This document shows positions 30,959 through 44,223 of a stretch of 64,000 nucleotides of DNA, in pieces. The position numbers and the translations under genes are program-made. Under the pieces are notes generated by a model. The model was not told where the DNA came from, made no database searches, and worked only from the letters and a program-made list of their open reading frames with translations. Positions within the stretch are counted from its first letter, which is position 1. The number at the start of each line of letters is the position of its first letter. Location of the stretch: positions 62,001-126,000 of the forward strand of contig NZ_VICC01000008.1 in NCBI RefSeq assembly GCF_006546825.1, written 5' to 3'. This DNA is from Actinomyces oris (lineage in GTDB: Bacteria > Actinomycetota > Actinomycetes > Actinomycetales > Actinomycetaceae).

Positions 30959-31596
30959 GGAAGCCTCCTCGCCACCGAAACAACTCCTGACACCACCGGA
31001 GTGGGCAACGCTGCCCGTCCGGGCGGTGTATTGACATTACCTGCACGGACGCCTCCACCGCCAGACTTTGACCCCGCCCTGTGGAAAACCCCGAACAGGG
31101 TCTTTCCGTCATGCGGCAGCCTCAACCTTCTCGTAGGGATGCCGGTGCGCCCTACGTCGCCTGGTCCGGCGGTGCAGGTGTGTCAGCCGCAGGGTGTCGG
31201 TCCGCGGCAACCTCGATGAGGCGGGTCATGTCTGCTGGAGACGACTTTGAGGTCTCAGTTCGAGGCCACTCCAGAATCGATAGTGCTCTGAACCGCGCCA
31301 ATGCGAATATGTTTCCTGAAACAGTCAGTCGAAGTCGTCCCATGCGGACACTGACCCATGTTAGTCACCAAGGCGCGTCCCGCGAATAAATCTTGGTGTG
31401 CGCTGTGATGTTATTCTGTCAAGCTGAAAGAAGGATGTGTGATGGAATGATATTCATTCTCATTTTGCTGTCAGAAAATTCTTAAAGTCTTCAAAGGCGT
31501 TGGATGCGGGAGTGTGTGAGCATGGAGATGACCCGCTGGGGGGGGTGATGCCCTTGGGTCGCTCGCAGAATCGCACCCTTCTTACAGGAGCAGAAC
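30959..31596. other. Upstream region of DUF6318 gene and fdhA, AT-rich in part
   Basis: No supported gene; small frames (for example around 31081-31389) lack ribosome binding sites and known domains. From about 31385 to 31500 the sequence is strikingly AT-rich compared with the rest of the window and includes the Zur-like box at 31448-31462. A TTGACA is seen at 31031-31036. The fdhA ribosome binding site (CAGGAG) lies just before 31597. Confidence 0.5.
31448..31462 (+). promoter_or_regulatory. Zur-like box upstream of formaldehyde dehydrogenase gene
   Basis: TGATATTCATTCTCA differs at one fixed position from the pattern TGA-N-AAT-N-ATT-N-TCA reported for actinobacterial Zur operators, and shares the core TCATTCT with the site at 35181-35195. 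It overlaps a perfect inverted repeat GAATGA-TAT-TCATTC (31445-31459). It lies about 135 bases before the fdhA start, inside the only strongly AT-rich patch of the gap. Confidence 0.5.
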
Positions 31597-32790
31597 ATGT
31601 CGGATCGCAATCGCGCCGTGGCGTTCCACGGAATCAACAACATGCAGGTCGACACCCTCGACTTCCCAAAGCTGGAGATGCCCGACGGGCGCAAGGCCCC
31701 GCACGGTGTCATTCTCAAGATCGTCGCCACCAACATCTGCGGCAGTGATCTGCACATCTATCGCGGTTCTTTCCCGGTTCCGGACGGAATGGTGATGGGG
31801 CACGAGATGACTGGCGAGGTCATCGAGGTTGGTGAGGATGTGGAGTTTCTCCACGAAGGCGACCTCGTCTCAGTGCCGTTCAATGTGGCCTGCGGCCGCT
31901 GCCGCAACTGCCGTGCCGGCCGTACGGACGTGTGCGAGACCGCCAACCCGAAGCTCGCCTGCGCGGCCTACGGCTTCAACCTGGGTGACTTCCAGGGCGG
32001 CCAGGCCGACTACCTCTTCGTGCCGTACGCGGACTTCCAGCTCCTACGGTTCCCCGACAAGGACCAGGCGATGGAGAAGATTCTCGAGCTGGCCGTCCTC
32101 TCCGACATCCTCCCGACCGCCTTCCACGGCCTGATGGAGGCCGGTGCGAAGCCGGGGTCCACGGTCTACCTCGCTGGTGCGGGGCCGGTGGGCCGCTGCG
32201 GCGCCGCCGCGGCCCGGCTCCTGGGCGCTTCCTGCATCATCGTGGGCGACCATGACCCGAAGCGGCTCGAGCTGGTTCGCAAAGCTGGTTGCGAGACGAT
32301 CAATCTGTCCGAGGACGTGCCTCTGACCGACCAGATCGAGGCCGTCCTGGGCGAGCCGATGGTTGACTGCGCCGTCGACTACGTGGGGCCAGAGGCCCAT
32401 GGTCTGGGCAAAGAGGCCGAGCAGATGCAGCCTGCCGCCGCAATCAACCAGGTCATCGACGCCACTCGCGCCGGCGGCGCGACTGGAGTGATCGGCGTCT
32501 ACGGTCCCGACCCGATTGCTGAGACCAAGGCGGAGCAGGAGGGCACCTTCCCGATCGACTTCGGCAAGGCCTGGATCAAGTCGCCCCGGATCACGGCTGG
32601 GCAGGCGCCGATCATGCGCTACAACCGCCAGCTCATGATGGCGATCCTGTGGGACCGGATGCCCTGGCTGCGTGACATGCTCAACCCGAGGGTGATCAGT
32701 CTTGATGAGGCGCCCAAGGCCTACGAGGCCTTTGATAAGGGCGAGGACGTCAAGTACATCATCGACCCTCACGGCATGATCGCGGCTTGA
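31597..32790 (+). CDS. fdhA: Glutathione-independent formaldehyde dehydrogenase (zinc, NAD-dependent)
   Basis: Oxidises formaldehyde to formate with tightly bound NAD+, without glutathione. The 397-residue MDR-family protein has the catalytic zinc ligands in ATNICGSDLHIYRG and GHEMTGEV, four structural-zinc cysteines in CGRCRNCRAGRTDVC, and a nucleotide-binding fold at GAGPVGRCGAAAARLLG. The long insert between about 255 and 305 (AEQMQPAAAINQVID) and the GTFPIDFGKAWIKS stretch are characteristic of the Pseudomonas putida-type enzyme rather than ordinary alcohol dehydrogenase. Start ATG follows ACAGGAG. Two zinc ions per subunit make a zinc-responsive promoter plausible. Confidence 0.9.
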   Translation: MSDRNRAVAFHGINNMQVDTLDFPKLEMPDGRKAPHGVILKIVATNICGSDLHIYRGSFPVPDGMVMGHEMTGEVIEVGEDVEFLHEGDLVSVPFNVACGRCRNCRAGRTDVCETANPKLACAAYGFNLGDFQGGQADYLFVPYADFQLLRFPDKDQAMEKILELAVLSDILPTAFHGLMEAGAKPGSTVYLAGAGPVGRCGAAAARLLGASCIIVGDHDPKRLELVRKAGCETINLSEDVPLTDQIEAVLGEPMVDCAVDYVGPEAHGLGKEAEQMQPAAAINQVIDATRAGGATGVIGVYGPDPIAETKAEQEGTFPIDFGKAWIKSPRITAGQAPIMRYNRQLMMAILWDRMPWLRDMLNPRVISLDEAPKAYEAFDKGEDVKYIIDPHGMIAA

Positions 32791-32895: not shown

Positions 32896-33768
32896 TCAGG
32901 CGAAGACGACGGTGCGGTGACCGTTGAGCAGCACCCGGTGCTCGGTGTGCCAGCGCACCGCCTGCGCCAGCACCCGACGCTCGACGTCCTGGCCCTTGGC
33001 CTGCAGCATGGACACTGAGTCCTCGTGCCCGGCCCGCGTCACGTCCTGCTCGATGATCGGCCCCTCATCGAGGTCCGCCGTCACGTAGTGCGCCGTCGCC
33101 CCGATGAGCTTCACCCCGCGCTCGTGCGCCTGGGCGTAGGGGCGCGCCCCCTTGAAGGACGGCAGGAACGAGTGGTGGATGTTGATGACGCCCCCGTGCA
33201 GCCGCTCGCACAGGGCGGGGGAGAGGATCTGCATGTAGCGGGCCAGCACCACCAGCTCGACGTCGAGGGAGTCCACCAGCCCCAGCAGCTCGGCCTCAGC
33301 CGCCTCCTTGGTCTCCTTGGTGACCGGGATGTGGTGGAAGGGCACCTCGTAGAACTCGGCGACGTCCCGCAGCGTCTCGTGGTTGCCCACCACGCCGACG
33401 ACGTCGACCGGCAGCCCCTGGCTGCGCTCTCTGAAGAGCAGGTCGGTCAGGCAGTGCCCCTCCTTGGAAACCATGATGAGGGTGCGCATGGCTCGCCCCA
33501 CCTCATCGAGGCTCCACTCCATCTCGTACTCGCCGGCCAGCTCGGCCAGGTCCTTCTCCAGCTCCACGCGTGACACGGTGGTCAGCACCTGGACCCGCAT
33601 GAAGAACAGGCCGGTGGAGGAGTCCCCGAACTGCTTGGACTCGGTGATGTTCCCACCGCGGCGCGCCAGCGTGCCGGTGACCGCGTGGACGATGCCCGGG
33701 CGGTCGGGGCAGGACAGGGACAGGACCAGGTGGGCAGCGGAGTCGGGTTGCGCCGTGGAATGAGCCAT
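32896..33768 (-). CDS. purU: Formyltetrahydrofolate deformylase
   Basis: Hydrolyses 10-formyl-THF to formate and THF, balancing the one-carbon pool and supplying formate for PurT. At 290 residues it has an N-terminal ACT domain (about 12-90, LSLSCPDRPGIVHAVTG) and a formyltransferase-like catalytic domain with the VVLARYMQILSP stretch, NIHHSFLPSFKGARPY (catalytic Asn/His) and GATAHYVTADLDEGPI (catalytic Asp). Same strand as the ribosomal-protein operon, 82 bases after rpmJ, so read-through is possible. With fdhA, glyA and folD nearby it adds to a local one-carbon theme. Confidence 0.95.
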   Translation of the reverse strand: MAHSTAQPDSAAHLVLSLSCPDRPGIVHAVTGTLARRGGNITESKQFGDSSTGLFFMRVQVLTTVSRVELEKDLAELAGEYEMEWSLDEVGRAMRTLIMVSKEGHCLTDLLFRERSQGLPVDVVGVVGNHETLRDVAEFYEVPFHHIPVTKETKEAAEAELLGLVDSLDVELVVLARYMQILSPALCERLHGGVINIHHSFLPSFKGARPYAQAHERGVKLIGATAHYVTADLDEGPIIEQDVTRAGHEDSVSMLQAKGQDVERRVLAQAVRWHTEHRVLLNGHRTVVFA

Positions 33769-33850
33769 GGCCTCAGCCTAACCGGGACCGCCCCGGCCGT
33801 AGAAACGGCTCAGGTGCTGGTCCCGGCTCGGCTGCATCTCATGGTCCGGC

Positions 33851-33973
33851 TCAGCCCTGCCGGGCCTTGAGGCGGGGGTTCTTCTTGTTGATGACGTAGG
33901 TGTGGCCGCGGCGTCGGACCACCTTGGACCCCGGCTGCTTGGCCAGGGACCGAATCGAGGCACGAACCTTCAT
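33851..33973 (-). CDS. rpmJ: Ribosomal protein L36, zinc-independent (C-minus) form
   Basis: Forty-residue 50S protein. It begins [19 protein letters not shown] and contains no cysteines, whereas the ordinary L36 has a zinc-binding C-C-C-H set. This is the paralogue used under zinc limitation. A GAAGGAAAGGAG precedes the ATG at 33973. It is the last gene of the alternative ribosomal-protein group, 80 bases after rpmE2. Confidence 0.93.
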
Positions 33974-34053
33974 GTCGGCTCCTTTCCTTCTTCGTGTCCA
34001 GTGAGGGCGGTGAGAGATCGACGGGGAGAGGCTTGGGTACCCCGCCTGTGCGC

Positions 34054-34305
34054 CTACCGCTTGCGCTTGCCGTAGCGGCGCTCGAACTTCTCCACCCGGC
34101 CGGCCGTGTCCAGGATGCGGCCCTGGCCGGTCCAGAACGGGTGCGAGGCGCTGGAGACCTCGACGTCGTAGACCGGGTAGGTGTTGCCGTCCTCCCACTC
34201 GATGGTCTCCGACGACGTCAGGGTCGAACGGGTCAGGAAAGCGAAGTCAGCGGACTTGTCACGAAAGACGATGGGCTGGTAGCTGGGGTGGATCCCAGGG
34301 CGCAT
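34054..34305 (-). CDS. rpmE2: Ribosomal protein L31 type B (zinc-independent)
   Basis: Type B L31 (83 residues): [18 protein letters not shown], then [21 protein letters not shown] and a basic tail. It lacks the CxxC zinc motif of type A L31. In Bacillus and mycobacteria this form is made under zinc starvation through loss of Zur repression and can displace the zinc form from ribosomes. It follows rpsN after a 147-base gap in which I see no strong terminator. Confidence 0.95.
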
Positions 34306-34452
34306 ACGAGCTCCTTGGATGTGGGTGGAGATGGGGGTGGATGTGAATACTGACGTGGTGAACGGGTGCCGGCGGCGGGGCTGCGAGGGGGCCGGCTGTG
34401 ACTGCGGCGCGCTGTGAGGCCCGGCGGGCGGGGACTCGCAGCCCGCGCCCGC

Positions 34453-34758
34453 CTACCAGGAGGACTTGACGATGCCCGGGAGCTCGCCGCGCAGCGCCAT
34501 CTGGCGGAAGCGCACCCGCGAGGTCCCGGTGACGCGCAGGTGCCCGCGCGGCCGACCGTCCACCGCGTCTCGCCGACGCAGGCGAGTGGGGGAGGCGTCT
34601 CGCGGCAGTGCGTGCAGCGCCGCCATCGCCTCGTCGCGCTCGTCCTGGCTCAGGTGAGGGTTGACCGAGGCCCGCTTGAGCTCGGCGCGACGCTCGGCGT
34701 AACGCTCCACCACCTGCTGGCGCCGCAGCTCGGCGGCGATCTTGGACTTCTTGGCCAT
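34453..34758 (-). CDS. rpsN: Ribosomal protein S14, long zinc-independent form
   Basis: S14 of 101 residues ([40 protein letters not shown], ending [11 protein letters not shown]). The short zinc-binding S14 has two CxxC motifs in about 61 residues; this one has none and the long length, so it is the C-minus type. Its ATG overlaps the rpmG stop by one base (TGATG), so the two are translationally coupled. Confidence 0.95.
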
Positions 34759-34931
34759 CAGCGCGACTCCTTGTACTCCACGTGCCGGCGCACCACCGGA
34801 TCGAACTTGCGCAGCACCAGCCGGTCGGGGGTGTTGCGGCGGTTCTTGCGGGTCACGTAGGTGTGGCCCGTCCCCGCGGTGGAGACCATCTTGATGATCG
34901 GTCGCAGGTCCTTGCCCTTGGCTCCGCTCAT
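34758..34931 (-). CDS. rpmG: Ribosomal protein L33, zinc-independent form
   Basis: L33 of 57 residues, [20 protein letters not shown] then [18 protein letters not shown]. The CxxC pairs of zinc-binding L33 are absent. Start ATG overlaps the rpmB stop (ATGA), and its own stop overlaps rpsN, so rpmB-rpmG-rpsN is a tight operon. Confidence 0.94.
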
Positions 34932-35167
34932 GACAGCTTCTCCCCTCGGGCGAGCATCTGAGCCACGACGACGTCGATGCCCAGTTTGTCAATGGTGCGG
35001 ATGCCCTTGGCGGACACCGTCAGGCGCACGGTGCGCCCCAGGGACGGCACCCAGTAGCGCTTGCGCTGCAGGTTGGGATCCCAGCGCCGGGGCGTGCGCT
35101 TGTGGGAGTGGGAGACGGACCGACCGAAGACAGGCCGGGCCCCCGTGACTTGGCAGTAGGTGGTCAT
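34928..35167 (-). CDS. rpmB: Ribosomal protein L28, zinc-independent form
   Basis: L28 of 79 residues: [20 protein letters not shown], then [20 protein letters not shown] and [14 protein letters not shown]. Only one cysteine remains, so no zinc-binding CxxC pair. It leads the alternative ribosomal operon. No Shine-Dalgarno is visible; a TTATAT -10-like box about 10 bases before ATG 35167 suggests a leaderless mRNA. ATG 35176 would add MLV. The Zur-like box at 35181-35195 overlaps this -10 region, where a bound repressor would block transcription. Confidence 0.93.
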
Positions 35168-35180
35168 GACGAGCATGATA

Positions 35181-35195
35181 TAAGAATGATTCTCA
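35181..35195. promoter_or_regulatory. Zur-like operator between rpmB operon and mrf-like gene
   Basis: On the minus strand the site reads TGAGAATCATTCTTA, one fixed position off TGA-N-AAT-N-ATT-N-TCA. It overlaps the -10 region of the zinc-independent ribosomal operon and is 27 bases before the mrf-like GTG, so one zinc-loaded Zur dimer could silence both directions. Gene content on both sides matches known Zur targets in mycobacteria. Confidence 0.72.
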
Positions 35196-35222
35196 GTTTC
35201 GTCAACTCTGCTGGAGGACCTC

Positions 35223-36419
35223 GTGACCGATCCCTCGGATGACTTTGCCGGCAACCTCGCTGACATCCCCGGCTCCCCGGCCGACGGCCGGCACACCCTG
35301 GCCGTCATCGGCGCCGTCGACCCCGCCCTGCTGGACCTGGTCGACCTCGCCCTGGCCGGCCAGGACGCCGTCGTCATCCGCGCCGGGCTCCACTTCGCCG
35401 CCGACGACGAGACCGGGAGCAGCGACGCCGACGACGACCTGGTCCGGCTCGTCAGCCACAGCTCGGCCGAGGGCTTCGACGACGAACCGGTCAGGCTCGA
35501 CGTTCCCATGCCCTCCACCTGCCCCACCTGCTCCCTGCGGGAGGTCCTGGCCGCCGTCGCCCAGGACCGCGCCGCCCAGGACCCGGGCGGCACCACCGTC
35601 ATCCTCCTACCGGCGGCCATCGAACTCGCCCACCTCCTGCCCGGCCTGGCCGAGGAGCTCGCCGGCACCGGCGTCAGACTGGCCGGAGCCGCCCACGTCC
35701 TGGACGCCACCACCGCCCTGGACGAGCTCCTCGAGCACCGCCAGCTGAGCGCCTTCCCCGGCGACTCCCGCTGCACGGGCGCCGTCCACCTGACCAACCT
35801 CGGATACGCCGACCTCGTCCTGGCCCTGGGACGCGATGAGGACCCCGCCGGGGCCGACCTCATCGAGCACCTGCGCCCCCACGACGCCCTCCTGCTCCCG
35901 GGCCTCGACGCACCCCTCCTGGAGACCCTCACTGCCCTCACCCACGACGTCGCCGCCTCCTTGAGCCGCATCCACCCCGCCACCACCAGCGCCTGGGGCG
36001 GCCCCGACGAGCACGGCGTGTGGACCCTCGACCTCAGCGCCTCCCTGCCCTTCCACCCCGAGCGCCTGCGCTCCCTCGTCGTCGAGCTCGCCGGTCAGGG
36101 CCTGTGCGCTCGCGGCTGCTTCTGGCTGCCCAGCCGCCCCGGCCGGGTCTGCACCTGGGAGGTCGCCGGAGGCGCCGTGAGCGTCGGCGACGCCGGAACC
36201 TGGGCGGAGGTCCCGGCCGCCCCCTCCGGTGCCGACGACGACACGGCCGGCGAGCCCCGCTGCCACCTCGTGGTCACCGGCGTCGGGGACGAGGAGATGC
36301 GCGAGCAGGTGCGCCGCGCCTTCTCCCGGATCCTCCTGCGCCCCGAGGAGATGGCCCAGGCCCTGGCCTGGATCGGCGCCGACGACGGCCTGGGCGACTG
36401 GTTCGGGCAGGAGGGCTGA
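35223..36419 (+). CDS. Mrf-like protein: CobW C-terminal domain with degenerate GTPase domain
   Basis: Protein of 398 residues related to COG0523/CobW metal chaperones but without a P-loop: where G-x-x-x-x-GKT should be it reads [14 protein letters not shown]. It keeps a cysteine motif [12 protein letters not shown] (like CVSCTIRDDL in mycobacterial Rv0106) and a C-terminal CobW_C domain ([33 protein letters not shown], then GDAGTW), ending [11 protein letters not shown]. Mycobacterial Mrf, divergent from a C-minus rpmB gene, recruits the hibernation factor Mpy to zinc-starved ribosomes; the same layout is seen here. GTG start, GGAGGA at good spacing. GTP hydrolysis is unlikely. Confidence 0.8.
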
Positions 36420-36540
36420 GCGCCCGCTGCCGCCGTGCGAGCCCCACCCCGAGTAGGCATGAGGCGGCACGGGGAGACGCCGGGCTGCACTGTGCGCTAG
36501 GGGACGGCGCGGCTGTGCTCCGGCACGGTAGGGTGTTCCT
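36420..36540 (+). promoter_or_regulatory. Gap before glyA riboswitch; probable promoter
   Basis: TAGGGT at 36529-36534 is a good -10 box placed so that transcription would start near 36541, the first base of the riboswitch. No clear -35 is seen, and the rest of the gap shows nothing else. Confidence 0.45.
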
Positions 36541-36617
36541 GTCGCGACTGGCGCCGGGTGGATCACCACCGGGGAGCGGCACGAACACGACTCCGGGGTC
36601 GCCCGCCTGGGCCACGG
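36541..36617 (+). ncRNA. ZTP (pfl) riboswitch controlling glyA-folD
   Basis: The sequence follows the ZTP/pfl aptamer plan. GTCGCGACTGGCG at 36541-36553 opens it, GGTGGATCACCACCGGGGAG (36558-36577) forms the internal hairpin and conserved strand, a variable loop follows, and the diagnostic CGCCTGGGC closes it at 36605-36613. ZTP riboswitches sense the purine intermediate ZMP/ZTP, which builds up when 10-formyl-THF is short, and turn on folate one-carbon genes; glyA and folD are classic targets. The canonical ...GGGCA appears as GGGCC here. Confidence 0.85.
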
Positions 36618-36663
36618 ATCGCCCACCAGTGCGCGCACGCCGCCTGCTTCAGCGCGGAGTGCG

Positions 36664-36677
36664 CCTCACACCTGAGG
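36664..36677 (+). promoter_or_regulatory. Hairpin covering the glyA ribosome binding site
   Basis: CCTCA (36664-36668) pairs with TGAGG (36673-36677) around CACC; the right arm is the glyA Shine-Dalgarno (TGAGGAG). It is a candidate translational expression platform for the riboswitch. Confidence 0.55.
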
Positions 36678-36683
36678 AGAGAC

Positions 36684-37994
36684 ATGACAGCGCAAGCCGT
36701 CACCCCGTCCCTGAACCAGCCCCTGGCCGAGCTCGACCCCGACATCGCCGAGGTCCTCACCGGTGAGCTCACCCGCCAGCGCGAGACCCTGGAGATGATC
36801 GCCTCGGAGAACTTCGTTCCCCGTGCCGTCCTGGAGTGTCAGGGCTCGGTCCTGACCAACAAGTACGCGGAGGGCTACCCGGGGCGCCGCTACTACGGCG
36901 GCTGCGAGGTCGTCGACGTCGCCGAGTCCCTGGCCATCGAGCGCGCCAAGGCCGTCTTCGACGCCGAGTGGGCCAACGTCCAGCCCCACTCTGGCGCCCA
37001 GGCCAACGCTGCCGTCCTCCACGCCCTGGCCACCCCCGGCGACACCCTCCTGGGCCTTTCCCTGGCCCACGGCGGCCACCTCACCCACGGCATGAAGATC
37101 AACTTCTCCGGCAAGAACTACCACGCCACCGCCTACGGCGTGGACGAGACCACCATGCGCATCGAGATGGACCAAGTGCGCGAGGCCGCCCTGCGCGAGC
37201 GCCCCACGGTCATCATCGCCGGCTGGTCGGCCTACCCCCGTCACCTCGACTTCGCCGCCTTCCGCTCCATCGCCGACGAGGTCGGCGCCGCCCTGTGGGT
37301 CGACATGGCCCACTTCGCCGGACTCGTCGCCGCCGGCCTGCATCCCAACCCCGTCCCGCACGCCGACGTCGTGTCCACCACCGTCCACAAGACCCTGGGC
37401 GGCCCCCGCTCCGGCATGCTCCTGTCCAGCCGCGCCGAGCAGTGGGGCAAGAAGCTCAACTCCGCCGTCTTCCCCGGCCAGCAGGGCGGCCCCCTCATGC
37501 ACGTCATCGCCGCCAAGGCCGTGGCCATGAAGATCGCCGGCACCGAGGAGTTCCGCGAGCGCCAGGAGCGCACCGTGCGCGGCGCCGCCATCATCGCCGA
37601 GCGCCTGGGGGCCGACGATGTCAAGGCCGCCGGCGTCAGCCTGGTCACCGGTGGCACCGACGTCCACCTGGTGCTGGTGGACCTGCGCGACTCCTCCCTG
37701 GACGGCCAGCAGGCCGAGGACCTCCTGCACACCGCCGGCATCACGGTCAACCGCAACGCCGTCCCCTTCGACCCGCGTCCCCCGCGCGTCACCTCCGGCC
37801 TGCGCATCGGCACCCCCGCCCTGGCCACCCGCGGCTTCGGTGACGCCGAGTTCACCGAGGTCGCCGACATCATCGCCGCCACCCTCGTCCACGGCGCCGC
37901 CGGCACCGCCGACGACGAGACCCTGGCCGCCCTGCGCGGTCGCGTGCGCGCCCTGACCGACGCCTTCCCCCTCTACCCGGGGCTGGCCCAGTGA
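36684..37994 (+). CDS. glyA: Serine hydroxymethyltransferase
   Basis: PLP enzyme converting serine and THF to glycine and 5,10-methylene-THF (436 residues). Signature stretches are [10 protein letters not shown] near 38, [16 protein letters not shown] near 60, and the PLP-lysine motif [14 protein letters not shown] with Lys236. ATG 36684 is preceded by GAGGAGA; the frame upstream is the riboswitch, not coding. The stop overlaps folD (GTGA), so both are made from one riboswitch-controlled transcript. Confidence 0.97.
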
Positions 37995-43014: not shown

Positions 43015-44223
43015 GTGAGTATCATTCCCATCCGTCTGCGACGGTTATCCGCACCAACATCCGCTCTCCTAGCTGCGCTCGCCCTGGCTGCAGCCGGTCC
43101 GGCTGTGGCCGCCCCGGCATCGAACACAGCCGGGCAGTCCACCACCTCCCTGCGCAACACCTCCACGGTGAGCGCTCAGAGCCTCGCCCAGATGGTCGCC
43201 GGTCCGAAGGCGACAGTCTCCAACGCATCCGTCTCCGGCAAGGACGTCCAGATCGGCACGGTCAAGGGACTGCCTGGTGACGGCAACGCCATCACCGAGG
43301 GGGTCGCCCTATCCACCGGCTCCCTTATCGACCCCGATCCCACCGCCGACTCCGACACCGACATCACCCGCTCCGCCGTCCTGGGACCCAACGACGCCCT
43401 GGACACCACCGGTGACTTCGGCGTCGTCGAGGACCCGGCGGGACTGGCCAAGGTAGCCGGCACCGACGTCTACGACGAGGCCGTCCTGGAGTTCGACGTC
43501 ACCGCCACCAGCTCAAACATCGTCCTCTACTACAGCCTCGGCTCCGAGGAGTACGCCGGCGCCACCGAGGGCACCCCGGCCTCCTGGCAGTCGCGCGGAT
43601 ACAAGGACCCGCTGAGCATCCAGGTCAACGGCACCGAGTGCGCCCACGTCCCCGGCACGCAGACGGCCGTGAGCGCCGCCTCGATCAACGAGTCCTCCAA
43701 CGCCGCCTACTACACGGCCAATGTCTCGGGACACACCCCGGGACAGATCCCCGTGGAGTTCAACGGCTACACCTCCGCCCTGCCCTGCCAGGCCTCCGTC
43801 ACCCCGGGGCAGAAGGTGCACGTGCGCGTGGCCATCGCCGACGCCCAGGACGGTCAGCTCGACTCCACGGTTCTCCTGCGCACCCAGGGACTGGGCTTCA
43901 CCGACAAGCCGATCACCGACCCCTGCACCGCCAAGACCGGCACCTGTGACATCCCCAGCAACGGCAAGGGTTCCAACGGGAACGGCTCCAACGGGTCGAA
44001 CAACGGCAAGGACTCCGCCACTCCGCCCGGGCAGGGCAAGCCGGGCGTGACCGACTACAGCGCCGCCTCGCCCACCGCGAACCCCAAGAAGACTGTGGCC
44101 GGTCTGCCCCTGACCGGAACCCAGGCGCTCTTCCTGGGAGGCATCGCCCTGCTGCTCCTGGCCGGCGGCGGTGTCGCGCTCATGCTGCGCCGTCGGCGCC
44201 TGACCGGCTCTGAGGCCGGCTGA
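43015..44223 (+). CDS. LPLTG-anchored surface protein with choice-of-anchor L domain
   Basis: Cell-wall protein of 402 residues. The GTG at 43015 (CGGAGA four bases upstream) gives a clean signal peptide (MSIIPIRLRRLSAPTSALL... cleavage near AVAAP). A folded domain from about 45 to 300 includes LEFDVTATSSNIVLYYSLG and SEEYA, typical of the choice-of-anchor L domain. A Gly/Asn/Ser-rich linker follows, then a sortase signal LPLTG, a hydrophobic helix and the RRRRLTG tail. Likely attached to peptidoglycan by a housekeeping sortase. Function unknown; adhesion is a guess from the architecture. Confidence 0.85.
   Translation: MSIIPIRLRRLSAPTSALLAALALAAAGPAVAAPASNTAGQSTTSLRNTSTVSAQSLAQMVAGPKATVSNASVSGKDVQIGTVKGLPGDGNAITEGVALSTGSLIDPDPTADSDTDITRSAVLGPNDALDTTGDFGVVEDPAGLAKVAGTDVYDEAVLEFDVTATSSNIVLYYSLGSEEYAGATEGTPASWQSRGYKDPLSIQVNGTECAHVPGTQTAVSAASINESSNAAYYTANVSGHTPGQIPVEFNGYTSALPCQASVTPGQKVHVRVAIADAQDGQLDSTVLLRTQGLGFTDKPITDPCTAKTGTCDIPSNGKGSNGNGSNGSNNGKDSATPPGQGKPGVTDYSAASPTANPKKTVAGLPLTGTQALFLGGIALLLLAGGGVALMLRRRRLTGSEAG

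Follow-up and report, generated by a model that had tools for sequence, protein, structure and literature searches.

A 64,000-nucleotide stretch of the Actinomyces oris genome (hereafter the window, G000:C8:62001-126000, where G000 is the organism's own genome of 3.17 Mb in 19 contigs) carries five genes for zinc-free ribosomal proteins, divergent from a gene for a 398-residue protein that resembles mycobacterial Mrf, with a single Zur-like box between them. With a probability of roughly 60%, we consider this arrangement best explained as a Zur-repressed zinc-starvation locus, whose Mrf-type protein would aid the hibernation factor HPF on ribosomes built with C-minus proteins. By C-minus we mean a zinc-free ribosomal protein without CxxC pairs, and by C-plus its cysteine-bearing twin. 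Our best reading is thus that the locus belongs, as a divergent member, to the Mrf/C-minus ribosome system described in mycobacteria, and by analogy zinc-coupled ribosome hibernation may extend to Actinomyces.

The ribosomal genes lie on the minus strand and encode L28, L33, S14, L31B and L36 (Table 1), all of which score above their Pfam cut-offs. None of the five proteins has a CxxC pair; L28 retains one cysteine and the other four have none. Each has one C-plus twin elsewhere in the genome, with three or four cysteines. The closest solved chains to the S14 protein are 8whx_o and 6dzi_9, and an in-frame ATG at 35176 offers an alternative start for rpmB2. The first-pass annotation had placed five ribosomal proteins devoid of CxxC pairs here, as the Pfam scores and cysteine counts confirm, and had proposed a search for C-plus paralogues, all five of which are present.

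The box is of the 7-1-7 type and reads TAAGAATGATTCTCA on the plus strand. Allowing at most one mismatch, the consensus TGAGAATNATTCTCA occurs at two sites in the 3.17-Mb genome, namely at this locus and where znuA begins; a model of independent bases with the G+C content of the window predicts 0.022. At up to two mismatches there are five sites versus 0.64 expected, and at up to three, 34 versus 11.4, with the reversed pattern giving 10, so that many of the three-mismatch sites could be due to chance. Because the consensus was derived from the mrf-like loci themselves, the znuA site alone provides independent support for the box. In all 30 loci with a relative of the divergent gene, the top-scoring site of the scanned stretch lies immediately 5′ of the gene and matches at 12 to 15 of the 15 positions. 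A script-based rescan credited 10 of the 22 Actinomycetaceae contigs with a score of at least 13, a low count that arises because the script-picked starts fall upstream of the box in several loci. Among the loci scoring below the cut-off of NF047431, the NCBIfam Mrf equivalog model, 4 of 23 reach that score, and we therefore claim no general box for them.

Read by eye, a TTGACG and a TATATC flank the box on the minus strand, such that the box fills the spacer and overlaps the −10-like TATATC by two bases; in this arrangement, a single Zur dimer could be enough to shut off rpmB. This minus-strand promoter is absent from the output of the promoter scan, which returns only the plus-strand site of the mrf-like gene, whose TTGGCA falls inside rpmB2 codons. 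The earlier proposal of a single site at the −10 of rpmB that also precedes the mrf-like gene is upheld, with the overlap amounting to two bases and the promoter assigned by eye.

A FUR-family search of the genome returned a single match, at G000:C6:531683, which comes after znuA and genes encoding an ABC ATPase and an ABC-3 permease. The PDB entries that match it best are 3mwm (1.3e-42) and 7vo0 (1.7e-42), both labelled as metal uptake regulation protein and which we take to be Streptomyces coelicolor Zur, and 2o03 (5.8e-38), labelled FurB, with the next match at 1.2e-17. Judged by these matches, the protein is closest to Zur and sits beside zinc uptake genes; the zur gene whose presence had been put forward as a check is therefore found, as the only FUR-family match, adjoining znuACB. 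The box, the Zur gene, the C-plus twins and the conservation of the locus all point to the zinc-starvation locus that had been proposed.

Further Zur-like sites occur elsewhere. Two tandem boxes, 36 bp apart and with two and three mismatches (L099:7038-7088; G000:C4:95037-95087), stand at the start of an Opp/Nik-type ABC transporter (ABC ATPases, SBP_bac_5, BPD permease), a candidate Zur-regulated importer of zinc or a metallophore. In the window, one site with two mismatches (31448-31462) lies about 135 bp 5′ of an alcohol dehydrogenase-type open reading frame (31597-32790, ADH_N), and another, also with two mismatches, lies at 43016-43030. SCO3431 is named among the Zur-regulated genes of S. 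coelicolor, classed as 'various', in a passage of a Zur review (PMC6103462).

The divergent protein has a CPTC motif at residues 100-103 and lacks the P-loop motif GxxxxGK[ST]; the middle cysteine of the COG0523 CxCC motif is gone, leaving CxxC. It matched no Pfam family, even with E relaxed to 10, while CobW_C is matched by 19 of its 26 aligned relatives. In the predicted model (pLDDT 86.1, pTM 0.85), YjiA is the best fold match in both comparisons. The aligned set, an Actinomyces-led profile termed A1, comprises 26 of the 30 loci (22 from Actinomyces and 4 others, with L005, L007, L017 and L027 omitted), and shows 36 invariant columns that include both cysteines, a variable N-terminus and no P-loop. 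A PDB sequence search with A1 yielded nothing at E 0.01, so the placement of the protein rests on fold, profile and tree. The initial description of a 398-residue CobW-type protein with CPTC and without a P-loop stands, its CobW nature being supported through the relatives and the YjiA-like predicted fold. A divergent sequence and a variable N-terminus might also be expected of a decaying, functionless remnant carried along with the C-minus operon, yet we regard this as very improbable: no stop interrupts the matched pieces of the gene in any of the 26 same-genus carriers, the invariant columns retain both cysteines across 26 sequences, and the gene is present or absent jointly with the second S14 gene, as described next.

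Presence and absence were scored in a panel of 59 genomes, our own included, of which 37 are Actinomyces. An Mrf-like match was found in 34 and a second S14 in 32, all of them within the 34; both genes are thus present in 32 of the 59 genomes, neither in 25, and a weak Mrf match alone in two. These two weak matches, which we kept in the genome tallies, are a 190-residue piece without CxxC in G044 and a match at E 9e-4 in G055, where the long open reading frame at the matched position is not CobW-like. The mrf-like gene adjoins the second S14 gene in 30 of the 32 genomes, and the two lie on separate contigs in G048 and G049. Both are absent in 11 of the 37 Actinomyces genomes; in one of these (G018, 89% complete), no S14 of any kind was found. 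An HPF tree of 51 genomes, which can only roughly replace a species tree, contains seven supported independent pairs whose members differ in whether they carry the mrf-like gene, and the second S14 agrees in 6.9 of the seven on average (median p of 0.016 in a sign test).

The same association is seen in the gene neighbourhoods, for which flanks were unequal (4 kb for loci on genome-panel contigs, 1.5 kb for others, shorter at contig ends) and the sets partly overlap, some named contigs being identical to panel genomes. C-minus L28, L33 or S14 adjoins the mrf-like gene in 26/26 same-genus loci, 22/22 Actinomycetaceae contigs, all seven over-cut-off Mrf loci (those scoring above the curated 375 bits of NF047431) and 19 of the 23 lower-scoring ones. 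In each of the seven over-cut-off loci, L28-L33-S14 diverge from mrf and L31B follows it, a gene order that matches the listing for M. smegmatis MSMEG_6066-6070 in part of PMC7174638, with strands inferred; the likeness in order to the mycobacterial Mrf locus that the first-pass annotation had noted is thus borne out. The Actinomyces locus shares with the C-minus genes of M. smegmatis (MSMEG_6065-6070) the adjoining L28, L33 and S14 in the same order, but it lacks the S18 listed there and includes L36. Moreover, L31B here ends the ribosomal operon together with L36, whereas in the over-cut-off loci it follows mrf, and a single box lies at the locus, whereas in M. smegmatis a box is predicted for rpmB and mrf each, as the relevant passage of PMC7174638 has it.

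Two trees were built to place the protein, the first of 61 proteins and the second of 68, from which L170 was removed for its long branch and to which eight rows were added (six P-loop paralogues, L067 and L072). In the second, one branch with support of 100/100 separates the P-loop-less proteins, over-cut-off Mrf among them (55 rows), from 13 P-loop COG0523 proteins; in the first, the P-loop-less proteins likewise fall on one side of a branch, and the Actinomycetaceae (12 rows) form one group inside a 35-row lineage (100/100). Profile comparison matched A1 to Mrf at E 1.7e-28 over 356 columns, nearly the full length, and to P-loop COG0523 at E 3.4e-24 over 290 columns that do not cover the N-terminal loop region. 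All 26 A1 proteins match the NF047431 model (best E 2.6e-41). On account of the trees and the profile comparison, we place the window protein on a distant branch within the Mrf clade and do not regard it as a close orthologue. The proposed Mrf-like identity is supported, at a distance and below the equivalog cut-off, by the clade, the profile match, synteny, and the loss of both the P-loop and the middle cysteine of CxCC. With mycobacterial Mrf (MSMEG_6069, Rv0106) it has in common a COG0523-like character, the absence of a GTPase motif, CxxC in place of CxCC, a preceding Zur-like box and divergence from rpmB-rpmG-rpsN as in the over-cut-off loci. From P-loop COG0523 proteins such as YjiA, ZigA and YciC it differs in the lost GTP loop and reduced CxCC. 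A clade test on 50 rows without the f37 family (p-AU 0.029) was set aside, as it separates f35 from f37 and is silent on how near Actinomyces stands to Mrf.

Some relatives merit separate mention. Mrf-like proteins of the f37 family (L182, L184-L190) retain CACC or CTCC while lacking the P-loop, and are possible intermediates between COG0523 and Mrf; their loci have L31B and L33 on the mrf side. The contig with the 190-residue piece (L070 in G044; twin L155, Demequina aestuarii) belongs to a genome with a single S14, and the piece may represent decay following the loss of the C-minus genes. In G196, C-minus L28-L33-S14 and L31B share one cluster (L244:2350-9506) with an mrf-like gene and a P-loop COG0523 gene.

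On the hibernation side, the A. oris genome encodes one S30AE protein, an HPF of the long form with 215 amino acids counted from its ATG. Its PDB matches are 9ebb (3.4e-43), 5zep and 6dzk (2.4e-41), and RafH (4.1e-8); 5zep and 6dzk are named as MPY entries in a passage of PMC10799931. By these matches, the single long HPF, a gene whose presence had likewise been suggested as a check, is Mpy-type rather than RafH-type. Judging gene names by reading, hpf is flanked by mtrA-mtrB-lpqB and by secA; it is encoded on the opposite strand and accompanied by a comF-like gene. Of seven genomes whose Mrf scores above the cut-off, six have relatives of MtrA and MtrB near HPF and five have a relative of SecA there.

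In mycobacteria, according to passages of a review (PMC13418864), both transcription and stability of Mrf depend on zinc and the protein carries CxxC; zinc-bound Mrf is degraded via ClpS and ClpC1-ClpP, and zinc-free Mrf promotes Mpy binding on C-minus ribosomes. Zur control of the C-minus genes has been demonstrated in M. smegmatis, as stated in part of PMC7174638. A comparable sequence of events can be envisaged for A. oris. Under zinc-replete conditions, Zur would occupy the single box and keep both divergent promoters off. As zinc falls, the five zinc-free ribosomal proteins would be produced and replace their C-plus twins, a swap that would free zinc and allow ribosome building. The divergent protein would be an Mrf-type pseudo-GTPase that has lost the GTP-binding loop and kept a two-cysteine CxxC remnant of the CxCC metal motif, with which it most likely senses the last traces of zinc. 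When zinc-bound via CPTC, it would be inactive or degraded, as by ClpS-ClpC in mycobacteria (a ClpS gene is present in the genome). In the zinc-free state, its target would be the C-minus ribosomes, where, by analogy with mycobacteria, we infer that it helps the single long HPF to bind.

Several observations weigh against this reading, and a first group concerns kinship with Mrf. The window protein scores far below the NF047431 equivalog cut-off, with 56.4 bits versus 375, and is 23-25% identical to three over-cut-off Mrf proteins and 22-23% identical to two P-loop COG0523 proteins. In profile comparison, over-cut-off Mrf matches P-loop COG0523 better (E 4.6e-36) than it matches A1. The Actinomyces lineage is distinct from both the over-cut-off Mrf lineage and the f35/f37 lineage, and the 61-protein tree does not settle the branching order of these three main P-loop-less lineages. 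Among other actinobacterial contigs, 27 of 35 have a C-minus neighbour and 8 have none within the flank. The neighbourhood is furthermore not Mrf-specific, as one of six actinobacterial P-loop COG0523 genes (in G196) lies near C-minus genes. Together with the COG0523-like predicted fold, the Zur-type box and the ZigA model, which matches all 26 aligned proteins (best E 4.3e-26; the window protein scores 39 bits, cut-off 600), that last case would suit a zinc metallochaperone or low-zinc delivery factor resembling the Zur-regulated COG0523 proteins ZigA and YciC. However, the aligned proteins lack the P-loop and the middle cysteine of CxCC, they fall in a separate clade from P-loop COG0523, and P-loop genes are rarely near C-minus genes (0/10 non-actinobacterial loci in addition to the one of six); Rv0106 lacks both GTPase motifs as well, as given in a passage of Haas et al. 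2009 (PMC2770081). We accordingly rate a metallochaperone role as quite improbable.

A second group of objections concerns HPF itself. To judge from the title of a 2019 paper by Tobiasson, the link between zinc and hibernation is reportedly disputed in mycobacteria. HPF is present in all 59 genomes, versus 34 with Mrf-like matches, and a comparison of 26 Actinomyces with and 11 without the mrf-like gene revealed no Mrf-linked change in the HPF domains, the six most different columns all lying in the linker. HPF is thus kept without an Mrf-like protein in many species, and the Mrf-like protein tracks C-minus S14. Such a pattern would fit a Zur-regulated ribosome-remodelling operon in which the Mrf-like protein has a task for C-minus ribosomes other than HPF recruitment: assembly, storage or zinc release from C-plus ribosomes. 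This we consider unlikely, if far from negligible, since mycobacterial Mrf, the only tested branch of the clade and one also found beside C-minus genes, aids Mpy binding, as part of the review has it (PMC13418864).

A Zur-repressed zinc-starvation locus with an Mrf-type protein that may aid HPF remains our preferred reading, and this kind of system is already known from mycobacteria; its spread over many actinobacterial families is a useful extension. In the open-access literature, a scope outside which the original Mrf papers fall, we found no Mrf beyond mycobacteria, no Actinomyces case and no account of the spread of the P-loop-less, C-minus-linked family, the zinc-starvation hibernation switch being described there in mycobacteria only. 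More tentatively, and at somewhat short of even odds, a family of pseudo-GTPase zinc sensors would extend across the actinobacteria, with Mrf as its mycobacterial branch; the family would have descended from a COG0523 GTPase that ceased to bind GTP, and would travel with C-minus genes to decide the hibernation of remodelled ribosomes, even in oral Actinomyces with a single HPF. If the switch is shared, it becomes open to study in other actinobacteria. Calprotectin in the mouth exerts nutritional immunity, which a shared switch would link to ribosome dormancy in dental-plaque bacteria. Actinomyces species with and without the mrf-like gene, all of them carrying HPF, constitute a natural experiment on the contribution of the recruiter.

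Table 1. Features of the locus (window positions) and C-plus twins elsewhere in the genome (contig positions).
Feature	Position	Strand	Basis
rpmJ, L36 type B, no cysteines, 40 aa (amino acids)	33851..33973	-	NF002021 71.7 bits (cut-off 70), PF00444
rpmE2, L31 type B, no cysteines, 83 aa	34054..34305	-	NF002462 133 bits
rpsN2, S14 long form, no cysteines, 101 aa	34453..34758	-	NF006477 120.8 bits
rpmG2, L33, no cysteines, 57 aa	34758..34931	-	NF001860, PF00471
rpmB2, L28, no CxxC pair, 79 aa	34928..35167	-	PF00830, TIGR00009
Promoter-like site of mrf-like gene, TTGGCA, 18 nt (nucleotides), CATGAT	35150..35179	+	Promoter scan; consensus match only
Candidate rpmB2 promoter, TTGACG (35205-35200), 17 nt, TATATC (35182-35177); or 19 nt, TATCAT (35180-35175)	35175..35205	-	Read from sequence
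Zur-like box	35181..35195		Consensus match
mrf-like gene, COG0523/CobW-like predicted fold	35223..36419	+	Fold, trees, profile comparison
L36 C-plus twin, 3 Cys	G000:C3:56053-56163		
L31 C-plus twin, 4 Cys	G000:C5:81624-81821		
S14 C-plus twin, short, 4 Cys	G000:C3:62795-62950		
L33 C-plus twin, 4 Cys	G000:C4:373705-373842		
L28 C-plus twin, 4 Cys	G000:C6:684213-684377		

Within window positions 32896-37994, the locus sits between a formyl transferase gene that we read as purU and a gene for serine hydroxymethyltransferase. Of the 22 Actinomycetaceae contigs, 20 have at least one of these two genes next to the locus; loci L127-L202 have neither.

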